From Oryzias latipes (taxonomy: Eukaryota; Chordata; Actinopteri; Beloniformes; Adrianichthyidae): a stretch of DNA of 64,000 bases. Both the position numbers and the translations under genes were made by a program. The notes under the pieces were generated by a model that was not told where the DNA came from, searched no databases, and was given only the letters and a program-made list of their open reading frames with translations. Each line of letters begins with the position of its first letter. The stretch's first letter is position 1. The stretch is from NCBI RefSeq assembly GCF_002234675.1, contig NC_019868.2, positions 20,864,743 to 20,928,742 on the forward strand, written 5' to 3'. This document shows positions 2-57,150 of the stretch, in pieces.

Positions 2-6614
<6,613 letters not shown>

Positions 6615-43911: not shown

Positions 43912-45500
43912 TCATCTGGGGGCTCGGTTTCTCCGTCTGAATGCGTCCCCGGCTTCCCTCCTGGCGCACACGTGTTTACTGAGAACCTGCGAGCAGTCCT
44001 CACAGTCCACCTTGCAGCACCAGTGGAACTTGCAGTTGCAGCTGCCCGCCACCTCCGTGCGCCTCTCCTCCACCCTGAAGCCGCAGTCGTGGCACAGCCT
44101 GCGGCAGCTGCGCCTCTCCGGCGGGGTGGAGCCCGTGCCGTGCTGCGCGCACTCCCGGCCCTCGGTGCCGGGGAGCCCCAAACTGGTGTTCCTCCTGCAG
44201 TAGTCAGGCGAGTCCTCCAGGTAGACTAGCTCCGTTTGGGCCACGCCCACCACGGCTCCCCGGTTGTCCGCGCTGTTTCCCGCCCTCATCGTTGTCCTGT
44301 CCACGTCCAGTTTTTGCGCTTGGTTGTACTTCAACTTTAGGAAATTCCCAATTTCCCTCAGATCCGACAACTGCGTCCAGCAGGTCTGCACGCTGCAGCT
44401 CTCAGACATGCCGTGGCATCTACACATGCGCTTTATTGTTGCCTTTACGGCCTGTTGGAAACTGCAGTTAATCACCGCAAATAACTGAAACAAATATAAC
44501 TTTTTCAAAACAGACAAAAATAAAAACAAATCACCTGCCGGCCCGCTGCGTTGTTGTGCAGATTGACAGCAGCTCTAGAGTCCTGCCCAGTCTCCTGTGA
44601 GTCCACGAACAGTTTGGAAATCCTCTCCCCGAAATCCACGTTATCGCTGCAGCCTCCCCATAACCAGCCCCGACCACCTGATCACGACATCACGCCATGC
44701 TGTCATTTAAATAGGCCCCAAACTCATAATGTGACAAACTGATAGTATTTTAACCTGTTTGTCCATTGTTTGGCACGTCACAGCCGCAGTTTTCCAGGTC
44801 TCCCAAACTACAGTTCCGCGTCAGAGTAAACATGACCCCCGCCGCACTTATGGCGTGGACGAAAGACGTTTCTTTGGTGGCTACGAATCAAAAACAGTCA
44901 CCCAACTATAATCACACATAACACAACAGTTTGATCTGGTAATTTGCAGAGAAAAAAATAACGTTTGAAAGAGAAAACTTTTTTTTATCCAATTCCTTAT
45001 AGGTTTTTATATTATATGAATATTTTCTGTGCACCTGCTCCTGTAAATGTCATATGTCTACATACCAAGTCTCAGTCCTCTCTGCTGCGTTGCGCTGTCA
45101 GGACAGTTCCATCTATCCCAGGCAAACTGATGTTTGCACTCCTCTATCCCGATCTGCGTCCCCACCTGCACGCTCTTGGCATAGGTGAGATGCGCCTGCA
45201 GAGTTTGAAACGACCATGAGTCGATTTCCTCACTTAAAAGCGCGCAGTCATTGAGCACATTTTCCAAGCATTGGACGTAAAACGGTTCATATAAATGGTA
45301 CGCTTTATTTACCTTTGGTCCCGTCATTAGAAGGTTACTGGCCACCCTTAAAGCAAAGATAACATGCATTTATTTGATCGTATTAACTTAAACATGAATA
45401 ATTAAAACTGTGTGCTAAGGATCTTAACTTTATCTTACCAAGCTTGTCCCGGATACATTTTCACCACCATAAAAACAAGCAAAAGTAGGGAATTGGCCAT
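43912..45500 (-). CDS. wnt8a: Wnt8a, second (downstream) gene of a tandem pair, complete
   Basis: Secreted lipid-modified Wnt ligand for Frizzled/LRP receptors. Exons 45500-45439, 45346-45313, 45195-45066, 44880-44755, 44677-44535 and 44451-43912 join in frame to 344 residues. Signal peptide: [20 protein letters not shown]. Hallmarks: [50 protein letters not shown], the lipid-attachment loop [14 protein letters not shown], the Wnt8-type SADNRGA and LEDSPDYC, and the Cys-rich end [13 protein letters not shown]. Corresponds to the second ORF of the zebrafish wnt8a locus by position. Introns 2-5 fall at the same places and phases as in its upstream twin, and exons 2, 4 and 5 have identical lengths (34, 126, 143). 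The acylated Ser is kept, but the next residue, usually Gly, is Glu. The basic RRRNRAPR tail is short. Confidence 0.95.
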
Positions 45501-46049
45501 TGTTATCCCAATAAATTCAATAGGAGAACTTTTTTAGTCCTGGTTCGCTTCTTCAATTTTCCTCTTTATCGAATCAGGAACAAATGGAACTCTTGTTATT
45601 TGTTTCGGAAGCCACAGAAAGCTGATTGGGTGACTGGTTCTGGAAACGCCTATATGTGCACATCAAAGCATCCTGCCTTTGCCTAAAGGCAGTAAGATGG
45701 ATGAAGACCAAAATGTTGCCATGGACAAATCTGAAGGAGGCGTTCATACTTTAGAAAAATATTTATTATGTGACATTTTAATTACAGAGAGTAAAATATA
45801 TCTGACACATTTCAAGCTCAAGAAAAATCCAAAAATTAGACTAGGCAACTTTTGAACTCACAATATGGAGTGCCCCGTGTTCTGTTTTGTTTTTTCTTCA
45901 AAAACGTAGCTTGATTAGGAATTAAAAACAGTTTTAGTCAAAATATGAAAGTGCAACAAAAAGTTTTAGATTTGTTTGATAGAAAATAACATTTTATATA
46001 AATCCATCATGCTAAAACTCTAGCGTTCAGTTTGTAAAACAGATGAGAC
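45501..46049 (-). promoter_or_regulatory. 548-bp spacer between the two wnt8a coding regions
   Basis: Lies between the stop of the upstream gene and the ATG of the downstream gene. On the gene strand it has a CCAAT-type box ACCCAATCAGC (45621-45631), a TATA-like CACATATAGG about 30 bases further upstream, and a possible AATAAA (45762-45767). So both a separate promoter and a read-through bicistronic message are possible. Zebrafish makes bicistronic wnt8a transcripts (established). Confidence 0.5.
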
Positions 46050-47612
46050 TCAGTGCCTTTGCGCACGGTCCCTGCGCTTCGTTTTATTATTGTGTCTCTT
46101 TCCCCCTTCTCTGCGCGCGCAGTAATACTTTGTGACCACTTGCATGCATTTTTCGCACCTGACCGTGCAGCACCAGTGAAATTTGCAGTTGCAGCTGCTC
46201 ACCACTTCAACGCGCTTTTGCACCACTCTGAAGCCGCATTCGTTGCACAAACTCCGGCAGCTTTTCTTCTCCTTCTGGGAGAAGTTCTTATCCCCCTTCG
46301 TGCACTCGCGTCCCTCGGTGCCCTGCACTCCCAGGCTTTGGTTCTTGACGCAGTAATTGGGGGAATCCTCCAGGTAAATGAGCTCAGTCTTGGCGATGCG
46401 CCGTAAAGTGTGCGCAATGATCCCCCGGTTGACTGCGCTGTTCCCCGCCTTTGCGGGTTTTTTGTCCAGTTCCAGCTTCATTGCCCGCTGGTGTTTCATC
46501 TTCAGGTAGTTGCCCACCTCTCTAAAGTCGGCCAGCTGCATCCAGCAAGTCTGGATGCTGCAGCTTCCTGACACGCCGTGACACTTGCACGCTTTCCTCA
46601 TGGTCGCCTTCACTGCCTGGAAAAACAGGAAAACAGAAGGAACATATAAAATGTTTTACTGGTATATGAGTTTTTTTTAATGAATCAATAAACATGAATT
46701 AATATCTTACCAGTCTGCCCGCCTCATTGTTATGCAGGTTGACAGCTGCGCGTGAGTCATGCCCACCCTCCAGCGCGTCCACAAAATGTTTGGAGATCTT
46801 CTCTCCAAACTCTACATTGTCACTGCAGCCTCCCCAAATCCACCCTTTTCCCCCTGAACGTTAAAACAGATCAAATATATTCCGTTATTATTTTTTTCCA
46901 ATCTGCAGTTAAAATAAACCAACAAGACTAACACTGGAGCGCACCTGCTTGACCAATCCTGGAGTCATCACAGCCACAGTTTTCGAAGTCCCCCATGCTG
47001 CAGTTCTTGGTGAGCGTGTACATCACTCCCGCGGCGCTGATTGCATGCAGAAAAGACGTCTCTTTTGTGGCTACAGCACATGAAAAGGAAACCAAAAGAC
47101 TATGGAATATGATTTGGCATGGCAGCTGATGCGTAAAAGCGCACGCCTGAGTGCTACCACATAGTGAAAATGAGGGACTCACCACTTCGAAGGCCGATGT
47201 GAGTGGATAATTGCAGTGTTTTCTCTGGACAGTTCCACTTTTCCCAAGCAAATTGATGTTTGCACTCGTGGATTCCCATCCGTGCGCCAACTTGAACGCT
47301 GTTGGCATAGGTCAGGAAAGCCTGGATAGGGAACAAAGAGAGCTTTTGGTCTGAGTACCATTTTACTCATAAATAAAATCCAGTCAGAATCTATTTTAAA
47401 TTACGTACCTTCGGCCCAGTCATCAGAAAGTTATTCACCGACCTGTCAAGAAAAACAAAGTTAGTGCTACAGCCTTATTTAAAATGAATTTGTGATGCTA
47501 TTTCTATAAATTAAGTTACGTACCAAGAAGAAGTCAAGTGAATGTGCCAGAAAATGTACAGAGTGAGCAGATTAACTATTTCCATGCCAGCTGCATTCCA
47601 ATGAGGGGCCAT
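46050..47612 (-). CDS. wnt8a: Wnt8a, first (upstream) gene of a tandem pair, complete
   Basis: Secreted Wnt ligand acting in ventrolateral mesoderm induction and posterior neural patterning in fish (family knowledge). Exons 47612-47524, 47442-47409, 47321-47183, 47070-46945, 46853-46711 and 46616-46050 join in frame to 365 residues. The N-terminus [20 protein letters not shown] is a signal sequence, perhaps starting at the second Met. Hallmarks: [50 protein letters not shown], lipid loop [14 protein letters not shown] (standard), [21 protein letters not shown], and a basic tail [11 protein letters not shown]. It is the closer match to vertebrate Wnt8a, and by order equals ORF1 of the zebrafish compound locus. 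Unusually, SAVNRG replaces the SADNRG seen in its twin. Confidence 0.96.
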
Positions 47613-47692: not shown

Positions 47693-49371
47693 CGGCCTTG
47701 CCCCTGCGATCGACAGATTTGTCCTGCAGGTAACGTTTCAACGTGAAAATGCATCTATGACAGCATTAATTGCCACGTCCCCTTGACAAATAGGAGCCGT
47801 CGGTGCATAAGTGCACTTCAAAGAAGTGACGCAGACACTTAAACAGCCCCTCATTCATTCACCTGACGTTCCCAGGATCTCATCCTGCACGCTTTTCCCA
47901 CGAATCTGCAGGAAGACAGTAACGGAACTTTCTGGGCCCCGCAATTTTAAGAAATGCACGTTCCAGTTAAAATAAATCAGACATTATGTAAATGCATCAC
48001 ACAAACTAATAGCATCCCCACAAAAATTGTTGTACCCATCCCTAAATATGCCTCATAAATCCACTCATACAAGAGATTTACATGAATCAAACGATGCATT
48101 CCGCCGCGGGCCTTCTTGGGGAAGTTTTCTAGAAATGGTAAAGGTGTCCCAGGGAGACACGGGGACTACAAAGCCTTCAAACTTTTCAGGGTGACCCCAT
48201 ATAGTCATGTAAATAGTGGCTCACACATTGGCGAAATTGGCATCGCCATGATAATAGGATAATAGTTGTTTCCCTGGGAAACAACTTGGTGTGAAAACAG
48301 TCTGGAATTTACAAGAGTGTAAACGCATAAGAGCTTTTGTTTGACCCGTTTTACAGCAGTTGTGCCTGATCAGTTGGGTTTATTTCGTCTTGTAGCCACA
48401 TTAAAATATGTGATGAATTACTTGTATACCTTTTACCCATATCATGATGATTGTGCCATGAAGAGTCACTCAGCAGTTTCAGTATTAGACCCACATCATG
48501 GTCTTACAGTGAAATGATGGGAGAAAGTTTGCCAAGCTGCTGATTAACATTTGAGTTTTTAAAACTAAACGGCTTACATGTGTCAAATCCCTTCTAAACC
48601 ACTCAAAAATCCCTTAAAACAACAATCCACTCAGCGCGCTGAACAATAGGCAGGGCGGCTGGGCGAGGCCCCGACAATGGCGCAGAGCTGAGGGCGAGGA
48701 TAATCCTTACTAATTAGATATCATCCACATTCATTTTCCTGAAAGGGTGAAACCCATGGCCTTCACTGCAGATCCATTCAGACGAGCTGGAACTTGGGGG
48801 AGTCTTCGAGTTTAATTAGCTAATGTGGGGAGACTTTATGATGAGCGTGCGCATCGAAACCCACGCACAAATCACGTTTTTCAAATGTATTTTATTCTCA
48901 TCACATTGTTTAAAATCCATACATCTCACAAAGAAGACTGATGAAATACTATTGTTGCAGCGTTCATTTCGATTTAGAGACCTAACGTCGTTCCTAATGT
49001 CATTAAAGCGCGTGCACACTTCTTAATGAGATGATTTTAAACTAATTTCGGACACATTAAAGAGGCGAGAGTTGATTTATGAGAGGAGGTGAGAGAATGG
49101 AGCCTGTTAGAGGCCGGGAGGTGGCGGCTTTCGCAGGCGGAGGAGGAGTGGCAGGAGCGCAGACGCCATCCACCACAGAGCAGCTTCATGGCAGCTCCAC
49201 CTGAACTCATCAGGTCCCAAAGTAAGACGGTTGTTGGTAAGATCCCACTAACCGTAATGACAAAATATTAGATGATTTATAATGAAATATTCCATTGCTC
49301 AAAAAATAGGCATAGAAAATTCATTTAGCTGTCGAGGTCTGAGATAGTTGGCTATATTTTCCAATTATTTA
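47693..49371. promoter_or_regulatory. wnt8a upstream region
   Basis: 1.7 kb without a gene. A Tcf/Lef-like ACTTCAAAG lies near 47.82 kb. At 48641-48720 a GC-richer patch holds two Sox-type sites (AACAATAGG, ACAATGG), a bicoid/Otx core (GGATAATCC) and a homeodomain TAATTAGAT. These are motif matches only. Confidence 0.35.
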
Positions 49372-49828
49372 CACTGTAAACCCGAATAAGTTCAGTGAAC
49401 TCAAAATTTTTGAGGAAACAGATTACATAATAATTCTTAAGTTGACTTACTTAAAAAGTATAAGTTATTTGAACTTAAAATCTTAAAAAATAAAAAAAAT
49501 TAACTAAAAGTAAACAATAACTTTTTATTTAACTAACTTAAAGATTCTTACTTTACTAAACTAGAATATTTTGTTTTTATTGAACCTTAATACATTAGTC
49601 AATGAACTAAAAAACTTTAATATATCTCAACTCAAAATTAATCATTTGAAGTCTAAACTAAGCCTTTTTTATCCTTAGTCAGGACTATTCTTACAAAAGA
49701 AAAACTGAGGCAGAATTGTAATTGCAAGTTTATTTTTAAACCACCTTACACAAGTACATTTGAACAACTTGTGGTACTAGAAAATGTAAAACACTGCACA
49801 ATTTGTGTTAAGAAAAGTGCACAAGCCA

Positions 49829-49856
49829 TAAAAAAAAAAAAAAAAAAAAAAAAAAA
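49829..49856. repeat. Poly(A) tract in the 5.8-kb element
   Basis: Uninterrupted A run of about 28 bases inside the left part of the element. Confidence 0.9.
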
Positions 49857-51013
49857 TCAGTCTTCAAGAAAAGCAAAAAATGAGCACTAATCTTTTTTAC
49901 ACCATTTCCTTATACAACTTTATAAAAAAGAGCATTCTTACATTTCAAGAAAAGCAAAAATTGTTTATTAGCCTTTTTTTTTTTACACTTTTCCCACATA
50001 AAACTGTATTTTCTTAGGCTGCCCTTTCCCTACAAACATGAGGGCTCAAACAAATACCCATTTGGGAATGTCGCCTACCACAAGCTCATCTTCCACCACA
50101 ACTGCTGTACTGAGCAGACAGACATGCACTGAAGTTGTATTGTTGTTGCTGACGGTCAGAATGCCAACAGAGGTGCTGCTGATGTCTGCCTCTGGTGACC
50201 CTTTAATCTGCAAAGAAAAAAAAAACAGTGTAGTATTAAAGAGAGAGAATTGATCGTTTGAGGGAAGAAAACTTTATGCAAAAACTACAACCTGAAATTG
50301 ACATTTTAAGAGAAGGTCAGAAATTACACATCAGGAAAATTATTAAAGTTGATTTAAATGAATGATTTCAAGCATTGTAGTCAAAGCAATAAATAATTTA
50401 AACATTTATCAAACTCATTACAGAAATGATGAAATGCATTGATTAAAAAGACAGAAAATAAAACAAAAACGTCACTTAAATCACATTTGCTTAATTCAAT
50501 ACAGTGATCTTTAACTAAAGTCATGTAGAGATTGATTTATTGCTTGAAAAGGATCTGGAAGAACAGAGCTTATATAATACAAAATCAAATGAAATCAAAA
50601 TAAGACTATATGTAAGAATCATCATGATTCCATAAGGCACTGTACACAAAAAAATAAACAAAAGCTTTTGTAACATGACAATCTGAAAAGAGGATCACAT
50701 TTATTCACCCAAACCCCACCCCTCCCTCCACCTAACCAGTTTCACCAACATAACTCTCAGCTTGTGCTGGATGGTCAGTACCTTTCAGGACACGTCCAGG
50801 AATTCCATCCGACCCAGCTGCTTACCTAGTATTCACCCTCTGGAACTCTTTCCTGATTTCATGCTCTCACAGTTAGCACTCGTTACTCTCCACCAGGTTG
50901 TGTCTCTGTTATGGGGCAGTTTTTCAACTACAGCTCAGAACGTCTCCATAACAATGACACAACCTGCTGGAAAGAATGTCACCTTCTTGCCAATGCAACT
51001 TAAGAGCAAAGAT

Positions 51014-51400
51014 TCAGTTCAATTTTATTTATATAGTCCTATGTCACAACAAAAGTCGTCTCCATGGGCTTCATACCGGCAATTGTACAAGAACATGAAA
51101 TCATAATACATTAGGTATTGACTAAACTAAACAGACTAAACCAAACTGGGCATCCCTGCCATTAGATCCCTCTTACACAGTAAGGAAAACTCCTTTAAAA
51201 AAATAAATAAAAAAAGACTCCTCCCCCAGGACGGACAGGCGATGTTCCAGAACTCTTAAAGAATTACATTTTCTAGTTCAACAACTGCATTTTTAAAGTC
51301 CAGCAGATTGGCGTCATCCAGATGAAATAGGGGACGGCTGTGGGCCCCAGACGAGTCAGAGGCGAGGTCCACGGTCAGGTACAGGAGCACAGATGAGCTG
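51014..51400 (-). repeat. LINE-type 3'-end repeat
   Basis: Opens with TTCAATTTTATTTATATAGT and continues with a GTCGTCTCCATGGGCTTCAT-like segment and a ACTCCTCCCCCAGGACGGAC block. This is the layout of a very common fish non-LTR 3' end, here inverted. It is nested in the 5.8-kb element. Family not named with certainty. Confidence 0.5.
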
Positions 51401-51752
51401 AAGTGCAATATTTTAGGAGACTATGTGCTTTACCTCACAACATTGCTTTGGCATGACTTTCTGGTTAAGTTATATTACCCACACAGCTGGAGTATTAACC
51501 AGCACACTGTCACTGGTACTATTTAGTGAATAAAACATTATCCATCATAAAGTACCTACATTCCAAACTTTGAAGAACTGTGGGTCCTCCTCACGTTTGT
51601 ATATGGGAAGCCAGTACAGGACAGGAGTACCATTAACATCAGCAGTCTGTTCTTGCTGAACAGAGACAAATACAAATTAATATGGCAAACATATTTCAAA
51701 TGACTGCACCCTTTGGTCTGGCTCAGATCAGTTCATTTAGTCTTTTTAATTA

Positions 51753-53207
51753 CCGTAAATTCCGGACTACAAAGCGCACCCGATTACAAGCCGCACCCAC
51801 CCATATTCACGTGTTTGACTGCTTTTATACATACACAAGCCGTGTCAGAGTACAAGCCGCGCATGTTAGCCGATATTGTCATCCAGACAGATCACGCCCA
51901 GCATCCCAGAGTGAGTGCAATTTATTAGCACATTGTGGGTGGTGCCAGTTTTGACTCTGGGTCACATATTTGAGTGTATAGACATCTGTCAAACAGCATG
52001 GACCTATATTCTGTTCACAAGTTCCTCAGTTATGTTGTTTTTATTTCATTTTTTTTTTACTTATTGACAATCTAGGTATCTAACAAAAAATTACAAACAG
52101 TAACCATATAATCAACATTACATCCCTCAGTTATAATGAGGAAATTTACATCCGCGATTCCACATTTCCCATGAGTCTTAGGGGCTAAAGGCGGGGCCAA
52201 CGCCCGGCTCGCCATTCTGTTGTACGTGTTTAAGAATGAGCAAGTATCAGCAGTGCATGGAGGGGTGAACGGGTACAGCTCTCCTTCCGCTTGTGTCGCG
52301 GCAGCGTTATGGGAGTAACAGGGCTGGTTAAAAAACACACCGGTAAAATACAGCAGCGGCGACTGAAAAGCGCGCGCCTCAGCGTGATACGCGCGCCTCA
52401 GTGCGGCGCGTGCGTCAGAATTCAGAAGCCTCTGCACTCCGCAGACGCCTCCGCTCCCGCGCGCTCCTTGTCTCCCCTTCCTATCTACTCCGACACCTCT
52501 GGCCAGGGCGGCTTCAAGCACTTCGTCCCCGTTGCGCCGGTGGATGGAGCAAATCGTTTCTGTGCAGAGCAATCGGACTTAAAACTTTACGTTTTGTGTA
52601 TGACGGGCGGGTGCGTTGTTACGTGTGGGAGCCTTCAGACTGCCATCGGCCCCGCAGCTCAATCAGCAGGAGAAGATGTCTCCAGCTCACACGGAGGCTG
52701 TGAGTTTTTCAAAGCAAAATTCCGCTTTTACGGTTTCCTTAGAAACCGTAAATGGAGTGTAAATTCACTCCATGCGCTGTTCTCTCCGTCACGCAGCAAA
52801 CCGGCTTTTCCAAACCCGTTGGTGACGGTGGACTTTTTTACGCTGCTTTTAACGATTGCTTTTAACTTGAAAGCTTCATCATAATGTAGCGGCGATCACG
52901 TGCACGTTGGGTCTAATGGCCCCAAAGGATTCTGGGATGCGGCCGGGCATGCGTGTTTCGTTTTGTTGAACCATGACTGAAGTGTCTAAGACCTGAAGTC
53001 AAGTCCATGCTGTTTGGCTGCTAAGAGGTGTGTTGAATAAAAATGCCTCGTGCTTGGTGTCAGATAGAGAATTCAAACTATTCACTGAGTTCGAAAGTAC
53101 ATACATGGCGGCCGCCAATTAAATCCATAAATTAGCCGCGTCACTGAATAAGCCGCAAGGCTGTAAGCGCAGGAAAAAAGTAGCGGCTTGTAGTCCGGAA
53201 ATTACGG
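51753..53207. mobile_element. 1.45-kb non-autonomous TIR element (pogo/Tigger-like), nested
   Basis: Ends CCGTAAATTCCGGACTACAA and the reverse complement of TTGTAGTCCGGAAATTACGG, flanked by TA at both sides. Subterminal GCGGCTTGTAG and CAAGCCGC motifs repeat. The wording (CCGTA..TTCCGGACTA) is that of a widespread vertebrate MITE type I associate with pogo/Tigger elements; that link is from memory. The interior 52.2-52.9 kb is CpG-rich with ORFs to about 200 codons on both strands, but none looks like a transposase. It sits in an intron of the element-borne gene. Confidence 0.8.
52729..52774. repeat. Two adjacent short palindromes inside the nested element
   Basis: TACGGTTTCCTTAGAAACCGTA and, directly after, GGAGTGTAAATTCACTCC can each form a hairpin (first one quoted in parts: TACGGTTTC, then GAAACCGTA). 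Confidence 0.8.
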
Positions 53208-53579
53208 TATCTTAAAATTGTACAGTTATTTCAAAAATACACCAAACATAAGATGACATTACATTCATATTTACAAATGCATTGGGATCAACGTTGATGT
53301 TTTTTTCTCCAGTGAAGCAAACATTTACAGTCATTCACTGAATTAGAAACGCTCAGTGATTAATATGAACCGATCCAAGTCAGCCCCTTCTTTTAGCTAT
53401 ACTAATGCATAATCTGGATTATGCCATGCAGTTACACCTCACCTGTTTATCATAGAGGTGCAGAATGTCGCATAGAGCCTTCCGGTTCGTGCTGCCTTCT
53501 GTCTCAACAAGATCAGCATCCGTGGCGTCTGTCTGTCCAGGTCAAAATAAAACTGTTTTCGCAGGTTGACATTTGTGCC

Positions 53580-53777
53580 GACATGTGCCGAAGTGTCCTT
53601 GGGCAAGACACTGAACCCCACCTTGCCTCTGGTGGGAGGTTGGCGCCAGTGTTTGGCAGCGGAGCCGCCATCAGTGTGTGAATGTGTGTGTGCATGGGTG
53701 AATGGGACTGTGACTGTAAAGCGCTTTGGGCCTTCGTAAGAAGGTAGAAAGCGCTATATGAGTATACGCCATTTACC
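53580..53777 (+). repeat. SINE body, 5'-truncated
   Basis: Same family as the split copy at 866-3295: GCCTCTGGTGGGAGGTTGGC, GGGTGAATGGGACTGTGAC and the end AAAGCGCTATATGAGTATAC then GCCATTTACC. The tRNA-like head is missing. It lies inside the 5.8-kb element, next to the first coding exon. Confidence 0.88.
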
Positions 53778-54280
53778 ATTTACATTTGTGATGCGATGAA
53801 ACTCAGCTCACATCTACAAAAAAAAAAAAAATTAAAATGTTAAACACAATTTAAAGCTTTTTCAAGCTACTGGTAGCTTGGAAAAACTGCTGCATTTTAC
53901 AATAGCCTCAATACTCTGTCCACAATATGTAATCTAGGATGCATATTAATATTTTATGGATGTTTTAGGAAGAGACAAAACTGTTATATTAAAATATTTG
54001 ACATTGTGAAACACAAATCACAACCAAACCAGGGGCCAAAATACCGTTTTTTGAGTCTTAAGCAAACTATATCGTACATTTAGTACTTTAACTCGAGCCC
54101 AATTCAGGACAAAGTTATAACTGCTACATAACATTAACTTAAGGTAGGTTGGACATTTTTACTTATTCATAATTAATTTAATTTGTCAATAAGGTCAAAT
54201 GTTCTCCAGGAGGATTCATTGGACTGAGAGCTGCCCGTGTCTTAAATATTGCAGCCATGTTAACTACAATCCAAACTTAC

Positions 54281-54315
54281 CTCCGCTCTTATTTTTCAAA
54301 CGCACCGCCGGTTCA
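54281..54315 (-). other. Possible small non-coding exon of the element-borne gene
   Basis: 35 bases bounded by TTATTTTTAG before and GTAAGTTTGG after on the minus strand, with CpG-rich content and no ATG. Splice signals are strong, but only transcripts would prove it. Confidence 0.35.
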
Positions 54316-54521
54316 CTAAAAATAAGATACGAGAACATGTTAGCGTAAGGCAGCTAGCTTAGCCCACATTTGCATTTATTAGGTTACTACGTGAAATACA
54401 AGTTACAGAAAAACATAACGATTACCAAATCACAGAGCCTGTGGTAAAATGTAGTAGAAAAAAAAGGCAATTCCCACCGAGTCGTATATGTGGCTGTGGC
54501 AGCCGCTCTGCCAGAGCTAGC

Positions 54522-54575
54522 GGTTAGCTAGTAGTAACGGTTAGCTAGTAGTAACGGTTAGCTAGTAGTAACGGT
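54522..54575. repeat. 17-bp tandem repeat, three copies
   Basis: GGTTAGCTAGTAGTAAC repeated three times without change, then a partial fourth unit; the sequence just before it (GAGCTAGC) is related. Confidence 0.95.
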
Positions 54576-54861
54576 TAGATAATTTAAAATGTGCGCCAAC
54601 CAACTCGGTAAACGTAAAACTTGAAACTTTGCCCCAACAACTTCTTTTAACCACAAGCAATAATTCTCTGATGACATGATACTGCAAAACATACATAATT
54701 GTTTAATTCAGAACAAATATTATTCGAAGATACATACAAACTCGTGGAGCACGTCATGAATACAAAGGATATACTAGAAGGAACATCAAAAGAAGCAACA
54801 AATATATAATACAGAGGCGAAAGTCATAAAATATAATTAAAAATAAAACAATACGACTTAC

Positions 54862-54975
54862 CTAGACGTATGTGCGTTATCAACTTGGGCCAGTTGACAC
54901 TCGCATCAGACCTCCGCCATCTTGAAGACTTCTGTGGCTGAGTTCAGGTTCATGGGCGTACGTTATGACGTCATC
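54862..54975 (-). promoter_or_regulatory. Promoter-like region and first exon of the element-borne gene
   Basis: On the minus strand: a perfect CRE palindrome TGACGTCA (54966-54973), then a YY1-type CAAGATGGCG (54915-54924, as is common at TATA-less start sites), then about 50 bases ending in ACGTCTAG and a strong donor GTAAGTCG at 54861. The order CRE, YY1/start, donor fits a 5' non-coding exon. Confidence 0.5.
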
Positions 54976-55160
54976 ACGTCTCATTACTCATAAGTTTTGA
55001 CTCGGTTTCATTTACTCAAAATGTTTCAGTCCAATAAAGATATAACTGTGGCAAAAGTTGAATCGGCTTATAGGTTTTAAGCTGACTCAACTTGTTTGTT
55101 ACTTTTGATTTCAGTGATTATAAAACTTTTGAGCTCATTGGACTATTCGGGTTTACAGTG

Positions 55161-57150
55161 TACTCTTACTCATATCAACAGTAAGCTAGAGGATTCTTCT
55201 GGGACAAAAAAAAAAAGAATGATACAGATAAAAATATAAAGAGCTATGACAATCATGAGATACAACTTTAAATATTAAAACTGTTTTCTTAGTCTTAATT
55301 TTTTTATTGTTATCAGACAATCACACATTTTGGAGAAAGGTTCCTGATGCACCATGGGATGCCACCCGGGTTTATAGGAGCTTATTTTATATATCAGTAA
55401 AAATCAAACAAACATTGAAAACAAAATTAAATAATGTCAACATTGGATTTTCTCAAGGAAGTGGGTTTGACTGACAGATGTGCAAAATGACTTAGTTTTA
55501 TCAGACTTGACAAGTGCCATTGGATACAGAGTAATGCGTGCTTGTTTTTTTAATTATTTTTTAACGATGTATAATATATATATTTTTTACATGTACAAGA
55601 AAATCAGTTTCTGCTTGTTGTGATTAACTGTCACCAACCTGGATCTACTAGAATACACCGTGTCTAAAGCCATGTAAACCCGGTGTGTTTTGCCACTAAG
55701 AAGTTTGACACCTGTGACCTAAACCTTCATTAGGTGTGCGTTTGTGCTCTCACTGATATACATTTAAAAATATGTTGATGTCATATATCTTGGGATTTAA
55801 TTACGCTTTTTCGCCTGTGCAGCTTTAAAAGTTGTGGGATATGGGATGTATGCCGACAAATATTTCTCATAACAATATTCAAAAAATCACAAACAAAAAG
55901 TATTTTTTCAAAAAGATATTCTAAGGCATGTACATTGAGGTCCAAAATAAAGTGTTGAGCAAGAATAAGGGTCTTCTTCTGTGGGTTTTTTTATGCTTGA
56001 CAAACAGCTTTGTGGTACATTATTGCCACCACCTGGTCTAGAGTGTGGTTCAGGATGTTTTTTTCTTTGTTGTTTTTTTTTGTAACTCCTGACTCTTTCT
56101 CTCTCTTTGTTCCACATTTTCCCTCAACACCTTTTTTAATTCAGAAAACCAAATTAAAACTGTATAAGCAGCTTTGTTACTATAGCATGTTGAAGAACAA
56201 GTGTCTAAAACCCCAAAATGTGAGTACAGAGACCAGGTTTGTGTAACTCTGCAATTATCTAAATCAGAAACAGCTGGGATGATTAAATTCAGGAAGATCC
56301 TGGGTGAACAGAAACAAGCTAAAAGGGAGAAGCAGGACCGCCTCACTACAAAAGTGACTAAAATGACAAACACAGTTTGAATCTTAGAAGTCAGGTCAGA
56401 AACAGGCAGGTGACTATAAAGCAAACATATGGGTATTCTCTAAACATGGTCGGATACAAGAACTGACTAAACGTAAATATTCTGAAGAGCCTGGGCGAGT
56501 TAATCTTTTGAGGATTGTAATAAACCAGAAGGAACTTTAGCTTCTTGGAGGAAAACATACACATTTAAAGAATTGCCTGGTATGTAACTATCTGTCAAAT
56601 GTAAGTTTGATGTGTGGATTAGTATTTAAAATTCAGAGTTCGTGTGCATTTATGGTGTTTGGGACATTTGGTTCACACATTGTCCATAGGAGTTGTTTGG
56701 AAAGCAAAGACTGTGAAAAATGTGTCAGCAGCTGAACTGCAACATCATGAAGGAGACAGCAAACCGTTTCCATGTCTTCATATTTATTCCAAAAAGAAAA
56801 GTAAAAAGTTAATAAGAAATCATCCCATGTGTTGACTTACTCCCATGTCTGTGGACAGCCAACCCCCCCCCCCCCACTAGCCTGCATAACTGCCTCCCTC
56901 CCTCATATTTCTACGTCACACCCCTCCCTAGTTTGGCAATACTGGACACATGCTAGCTTACAGCTAACAGGACAAGACAGGCACCCAGGCTCAAGTTTTC
57001 AGAATGGCAAGAAAGCCCCCATGTGAGGATGCAGAAGTACCCTTATAGCACCCTAATCTGAAGACAATGAAACAGATCCAAAATATTGTGGTAATTGAAA
57101 GAAAGTGCTTTTTTTTCTGTGGCATCTCAGCTTCTCTTCTTGTGCTCAAG
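55161..57150. other. Intergenic sequence and beta-thymosin 3' UTR
   Basis: No gene in 55.16-56.7 kb; mostly unique AT-rich DNA. A minus-strand AATAAA (TTTATT at 56782-56787) would give the thymosin gene a 3' UTR of about 370 bases. A C-run lies near 56.86 kb. Confidence 0.45.

Follow-up and report, generated by a model that had tools for sequence, protein, structure and literature searches.

Plant CACTA/Spm transposons are two-gene elements, which encode the transposase TNPD and the accessory protein TNPA. For the transposases of EnSpm, Mirage, Chapaev and Transib, the CMCT text of Kojima (2025; PMC12730594) gives a common order of motifs, in which C(2)C and H(3–4)H lie between the second D and the last E of a DDE transposase, and it assigns to these elements mostly CA..TG ends and target-site duplications of 2–5 bp. 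In medaka, only 162 CMC-EnSpm copies were tabulated in PMC4746887, and this tabulated figure hints at an under-annotation of the group in this fish. Here we analyse an element of 5.8 kb, at positions 49372–55160 of a stretch of 64,000 nt from the medaka genome (Oryzias latipes, contig NC_019868.2); this whole stretch is hereafter the window, and coordinates without a contig refer to it. The element has inverted ends and minus-strand exons, and is very probably a non-autonomous derivative, by internal deletion, of a cut-and-paste transposon of the CMC superfamily (EnSpm/CACTA-like). Its exons belong to the element's own second gene (gene 2), because this gene is found intact beside the transposase in full-length relatives whose ends are nearly the same.

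Ends and copies of the element

The element is flanked by TA dinucleotides (49370–49371 and 55161–55162), and TACACTGTAAACCCGAATA, at 49370 and 55162, forms a perfect inverted pair of 19 nt with the TA and 17 nt without it. The longest perfect inverted pair across 30 dinucleotide shuffles of the window had 18 nt, and the pairs of the real window that are longer than that of the element all lie within an unrelated palindrome (1061–3218), which supports the inverted ends proposed in the preliminary description. Beyond the 17 perfect nucleotides, the terminal match reaches 88% over 42 nt and, if gapped, extends over about 110 nt (left terminal inverted repeat, 49372–49476; right terminal inverted repeat, 55052–55160). 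The gapped alignment shows in both ends a palindrome-like module, AAGTTGA...GAACTT/CAACTT, seen as AAGTTGA..TTGAACTT at 49439–49476 in the left repeat; the right repeat contains the palindrome AAGTTGAGTCAGCTTA..TAAGCCGATTCAACTT at 55055–55093. When pairs of TACACTG..CAGTGTA with at least 13 of 20 matching end bases were sought, a single pair was found in the window, that of the element, whose CACTG..CAGTG termini fit the 5'-CA..TG-3' ends plus terminal inverted repeats that characterize CMC transposons.

The exact 17-bp end occurs 74 times in the medaka genome (734 Mb, 25 contigs searched), and its reversed control does not occur. With 40 of 96 candidates scored, the left 1 kb of the element had at least 42 genome matches; one is the window itself, and identity in the rest is 86–97%. 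The 20 best matches besides the window were fetched and, together with the window copy, make up the 21 copies compared throughout. The 20 fetched copies share one common founder structure of 3.2–4.1 kb, barring later inserts, and a subset of copies lacks the region around 50657–51150. About 1.66 kb of the window copy are two later insertions unique to it among the 21 copies: a terminal inverted repeat insertion of 1455 bp (51753–53207), with TA duplicated at 51751–51752 and 53208–53209 and whose empty site was observed, and a repeat of 204 bp within exon 3 (53578–53781), with a 9-bp duplication (ACATTTGTG). The previously proposed bounds are thus real, but not all of the 5.8 kb belongs to the original element.

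Matching 2-bp duplications flank 12 of the 19 fetched copies in which the right end was found, as well as the window copy and both full-length elements described below, with a match expected by chance in 1 of 16 cases per copy. The duplicated dinucleotides in those 12 copies were AG, CT, TA, CA, TG, CA, TG, CA, TG, TA, AA and TA. The TA duplication proposed earlier therefore holds for the window copy, but across copies the duplication comprises 2 bp of any sequence, within the 2–5 bp of the CMCT text (PMC12730594). In the twentieth copy, L019, the right end was not picked up by the end search, yet the alignment reaches within 2 nt of it.

Other copies have a history of their own. L018 and L027 bear other insertions; L027 (C12:21799838-21809800) is a copy of 7.4 kb with an insertion of about 3.4 kb near the site of the 204-bp repeat of the window, the repeat itself being absent. 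In L031 (C17:1034500-1043800), a second right-end match is nearly adjacent and, with inverted partial matches, marks a nested or rearranged pair. In three places two exact 17-bp ends lie close together, over spans of 118–590 bp (C1:32480174-32480763, C15:9383567-9383684 and C22:19415251-19415643); these are probably short derivatives of the miniature inverted-repeat transposable element type. The 1455-bp insertion has a GC-rich core and ends (CCGTAAATTCCGGACTACAA) that, as we presume, resemble those of ISRm11.

Full-length relatives and the internal deletion

A protein search with exons 4 and 5 of the element produced 105 genome matches at E values up to 10, two of them with 57–60% identity in open frames of 133 amino acids (aa). 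Two full-length elements were identified, of 11,618 bp (C19:13356731-13368348; duplication TA/TA) and 13,124 bp (C9:24562151-24575274; duplication TT/TT), which share about 99% identity along most of their length. In both, the left end is the exact 17-bp end and the right end is one base off, and both carry the exons of the window remnant and the two promoter-like motifs detailed below. Each contains an intact open reading frame of 884 aa (ORF1), with four differences between them, and gene 2 downstream of it on the same strand, spliced over four exons and without stops (515 aa in one element and 510 aa in the other). In the C19 element, gene 2 occupies C19:13363925-13367423. The splice sites of exons 4 and 5 from the window are identical in position to those of the full-length gene 2.

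Homology to the C19 element stops at about C19:13358414 and restarts at 13364940, 13 nt before the acceptor of gene 2 exon 3. Missing from the window family are thus about 6.5 kb (about C19:13358415-13364939), which hold ORF1 and the first exon of gene 2; the junction of this deletion (53826–53898) includes about 70 nt that were matched by BLAST to neither side. The family consequently fits a deletion derivative, having the ends and internal sequence of a longer coding element and lacking the transposase. As judged from this alignment, the window copy evidently retains both ends, the putative promoter, the 5' non-coding exon and the 3' exons of gene 2, the rest having been lost. Further fragments of the transposase occur in C17 (6705569–6707560), with three pieces 67–82% identical and one 47% identical.

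Class of the transposase

ORF1 contains four C2H2 fingers. In an alignment with three homologs, 57, 42, and 29% identical to it, residues D358, D450, C470-x2-C473, H681-x3-H685 and E705 were invariant in the four sequences. This order, which is that of the relatives and not of the window copy, fits a DDE transposase with C(2)C and H(3–4)H between the second D and the last E. Two of the four members matched the Pfam family Transposase_21 (tnp2), with E values of 0.0027 and 0.13, both below the curated cut-off; we take this family to be the CACTA transposase. More divergent homologs, 32–36% identical and with open frames of 814–851 aa without stops, were located at C24:11654161, C5:12195943, C19:6440449, C13:33783876, C20:370159 and C23:8098140; no gene 2 match was found within 12 kb of any of these six loci. 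Searches with the exons, ORF1 and gene 2 against Pfam, PDB and NCBIfam returned no family call besides a weak zinc finger and the sub-threshold Transposase_21 matches in Pfam and the matches to the fingers in PDB, and no relative was found in collections of viral contigs and genome contigs.

Pairing of gene 2 with the transposase

There were at least 54 genome matches to ORF1 (51 of 221 candidates scored), merged into 46 loci, and 63 matches to the first exon of gene 2 (all 80 candidates scored), merged into 47 loci. The start of gene 2 lies within 3 kb downstream of ORF1 and on the same strand, at distances of 14 to 1924 nt, in 27 of the 46 ORF1 loci, compared to about 0.004 pairs expected, by arithmetic and not from shuffles, if both were placed at random; one further locus has a non-canonical arrangement of gene 2. 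Over the 81 codons of exons 4 and 5, the mean dN/dS between the C19 element and 15 derivative copies was 0.43. The recurrent pairing and this ratio together make gene 2 look like a regular, constrained component of this transposon lineage, as far as the sequences tell.

Four pieces of gene 2 and ORF1 yielded no Pfam domain apart from a weak zinc finger in ORF1, and nothing telling in PDB. We assume that gene 2 corresponds to the protein named 'SAMD3-like' in fish annotations. A literature search, at the level of titles and beginnings of abstracts, found no link of SAMD3-like proteins to a transposon; the name appears as a gene annotation in a table of PMC6771007, for two genes that may or may not be of this kind. 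There is perhaps an even chance that many fish genes called 'SAMD3-like' do not form a host family and instead represent the second gene, conserved, of a lineage of CMC transposons. The protein would then act as a partner of the C2H2-finger transposase, either required or regulatory, and would be under selection across divergent elements; its gene would have a 5' acceptor of its own directly after the stop of the transposase. If the name applies, fish expression studies may include some in which genes of transposons are taken for those of the host.

Gene remnant and promoter in the window copy

Five exons can be delimited on the minus strand of the window copy. Exon 1 (54862–54990) is non-coding, with a predicted start, and contains a short upstream frame (ATGGCGGAGGTCTGA) and the donor TAG/GTAAGT; a small 5' non-coding exon of 35 nt (54281–54315) has the strong donor GAG/GTAAGT, and the corresponding stretches of the full-length elements, about 71–72% homologous, also have a strong donor. 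These strong donors agree with the preliminary description. Exon 3 (53443–53813; donor CAG/GTGAGG) is interrupted by the 204-bp repeat, exon 4 (QEQTADVNGTPVLYWLPIYKREEDPQFFKVWN; 51560–51655) has the donor AAT/GTAGGT and the splice sites of the full-length element, and in exon 5 (50046–50207) homology ends after ..DIPKW (about 50058), followed by a deletion junction and a stop. The promoter-like region includes a YY1-like site (AAGATGGCGG, 54914–54923, minus strand) and a palindrome resembling a cAMP response element (CRE; TGACGTCA, 54966–54973), conserved respectively in 21 and 17 of the 21 copies and both present in the full-length elements. The palindromic CRE alone is unremarkable, with 0.36 occurrences expected per window, the YY1-like site being rarer (0.03).

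With the two later insertions omitted, a combined gene-structure score was 39.4 for the minus strand and 18.9 for the plus strand, and none of 200 shuffles exceeded 20.2, although its best path departs in detail from the true exons. In a test of the longest spliced frame, the minus strand was reached by none of 100 shuffles under strict thresholds, with a best path that crossed the later terminal inverted repeat insertion; under loose thresholds it was reached by 22 of 100 shuffles, and the plus strand scored higher. Splice sites are retained in most of the 20 other copies, L012 having lost the GT of the exon 2 donor and L013 most of exon 4.

The minus-strand splice structure is therefore real, but the coding exons announced for it do not form an open frame. 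The ATG of exon 1 runs into a TGA after four codons in all 21 copies, the second codon of exon 3 is TGA in 18 of the 21 (those where the pattern was found), exon 3 has a frame shift, common to the copies, caused by a short deletion that the full-length gene does not have, and all 21 show the motif of the junction at which, behind ..PKW, the tail has been deleted; because of these lesions the coding frame is dead, and there is no start exon in the remnant frame. What had seemed a complete transcription unit is, on the evidence of the alignments, the two ends of a longer gene fused by a deletion, and we read the gene remnant as a passenger.

Earlier readings of the remnant were discarded. The TGA of exon 1 in every copy ruled out a first model joining this exon in frame with later ones; a start of exon 3 at 53528 gave way to the acceptor at 53813, established by homology to the full-length gene; and the frame after ..DIPKW is not a decayed protein tail, as the alignment shows the tail deleted there.

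Origin of the element and of its exons

The order of events would be as follows. The ORF1 transposase supplied by full-length relatives would bind, in trans, the terminal repeats and sub-terminal palindromes of the derivative, which would be cut out and then inserted with a 2-bp stagger. The derivative would have a single origin, probably in the interrupted repair of a gap left by excision, with a filler of about 70 nt at the junction, and would have spread later. In the full-length elements, gene 2 probably encodes an accessory or regulatory protein, and a single promoter could serve both genes if their transcripts are alternatively spliced; a strong acceptor immediately precedes the start of gene 2.

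Several observations weigh against this reading. The shared stretches longer than 100 nt are only about 71–85% identical between the window family and the full-length elements, so the C19 and C9 elements are sisters and not the direct parent, and the copies read included no full-length element belonging to the subfamily of the window copy. Seven of the 19 fetched copies with a right end (L009, L011, L015, L016, L018, L023 and L025) have no matching 2-bp duplication; in L009, L016 and L023 the outermost left bases are altered, and in L009 the duplication would match (AC) at a second, more distal right end. Neither L029, the full-length element's own ORF1, nor L034 matched Transposase_21, and the PDB search returned only zinc-finger matches plus one R2 retrotransposon chain on the finger region, with nothing transposase-like otherwise. 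The putative class of the transposase draws on the order of the motifs, on the features of ends and duplications and on the sub-threshold Pfam match. Finally, 18 of the 46 ORF1 loci have no gene 2 within 12 kb; since 16 of these are 29–37% identical to ORF1 and the other two are the C17 fragments, gene 2 may have escaped detection at these loci through divergence.

The preliminary description had considered either a host gene captured and spread or the mobility or accessory protein of an undescribed element. The capture of part of a host gene between transposon ends, as in Pack-TIRs, would explain splice-site-bearing exons and a promoter between inverted repeats in a copy without transposase. 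Nevertheless, these exons, promoter and ends also occur in full-length elements beside a transposase, and gene 2 adjoins the transposase in the 27 loci described above; on both grounds it is an element gene, which contradicts capture for the window family and makes this origin highly unlikely. The exons do come from the second gene of an element, as the other proposal allowed, but this element is not undescribed: an intact 884-aa ORF1 with the motifs of a known superfamily is present in two relatives, the very finding that had been named as contrary to a novel system. That the exon-encoded protein itself mobilised the element, in the absence of a DDE transposase, is hardly credible; no transposase match was obtained in Pfam with 12 reading-frame queries from the window, which favours that idea, but full-length relatives encode a CMC-type transposase and the tail of the remnant is deleted in all copies. 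An assignment to Tc1/mariner has equally little to recommend it: TA is duplicated at the window copy, three fetched copies and one full-length element, but AG, CT, CA, TG, AA and TT are duplicated elsewhere and the order of the transposase motifs is that of CMC.

Selection could also have maintained the short derivatives for a truncated gene 2 protein acting, for example, as a repressor of full-length elements. Deleted P elements make such repressors. Conservation extends over the promoter, exon 1 and the majority of splice sites, and mean pairwise divergence among derivatives in the right end, promoter, exon 1, exon 2 and intron 1 (0.022–0.027) is about half that of introns 2–4 (0.042–0.048). 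Additionally, 15 of the 21 copies have open exons 4 and 5; among these, exon 5 diverges slightly less (0.035) than the introns and the pooled pN/pS of both exons is 0.58, a weak hint of constraint that is biased by the exclusion of six copies with frame shifts, stops or a missing exon 4. Conversely, exons 3–5 diverge about as much (0.035–0.053) as introns 2–4, the stop in exon 3 is widespread, no start exon exists, and binding by the transposase accounts equally for the right end, which looks constrained in a manner fitting a transposase-binding end. We consider such selection very unlikely, and the internal-deletion derivative of a CMC transposon remains our preferred explanation.

Genomic surroundings

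The setting looks vertebrate, with Pfam matches to the wnt family, forkhead and a ligand-gated channel in five of 10 window frames queried. Two tandem wnt-family genes, recognised by Pfam wnt matches in three reading frames, lie on the minus strand at 43912–47311; the nearest wnt frame found is about 2 kb from the start of the element, which lies upstream of it and may bear on the regulatory region of that gene. Far from the element, positions 1061–3218 form a near-perfect palindrome of 2.1 kb with arms of about 1 kb (92%), which looks like a Mutator-type foldback element. It is inserted in a repeat similar in kind to that at 53578–53781 and is flanked by a 10-bp near-duplication (GTAAAGTACT/GTAAAGTGCT).

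Comparison with known systems

The puzzle of an element with exons and without transposase is now explained, with the identification of full-length relatives in which both genes are open. The window element itself is ordinary, and the part worth following is the gene pair: the recurrence of a second gene beside a CMC-type transposase leads to the testable claim that animal EnSpm-like elements have an accessory protein. Animal Pack-TIRs, as presented in a 2021 Nat Commun article (PMC8277862), resemble the window family in being multicopy and in holding exon-like, non-transposase sequence within inverted repeats; their cargo is captured host DNA, whereas here it is the element's own gene. With regard to the CMC superfamily (EnSpm/CACTA, Mirage and Chapaev; 'CMCT' in PMC12730594), the likeness is judged from the described motifs and the sub-threshold tnp2 match, and not from comparison with a reference CMC transposase sequence; the medaka elements differ in having four C2H2 fingers at the N terminus of the transposase and, downstream, a second gene that is spliced, and no such second gene is described in the consulted passages of the CMCT text. 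A parallel in the way of working exists with plant CACTA/Spm, in which there are also two proteins per element and deletion derivatives moved in trans, a likeness that concerns how the systems operate and not the sequences of gene 2 and TNPA.

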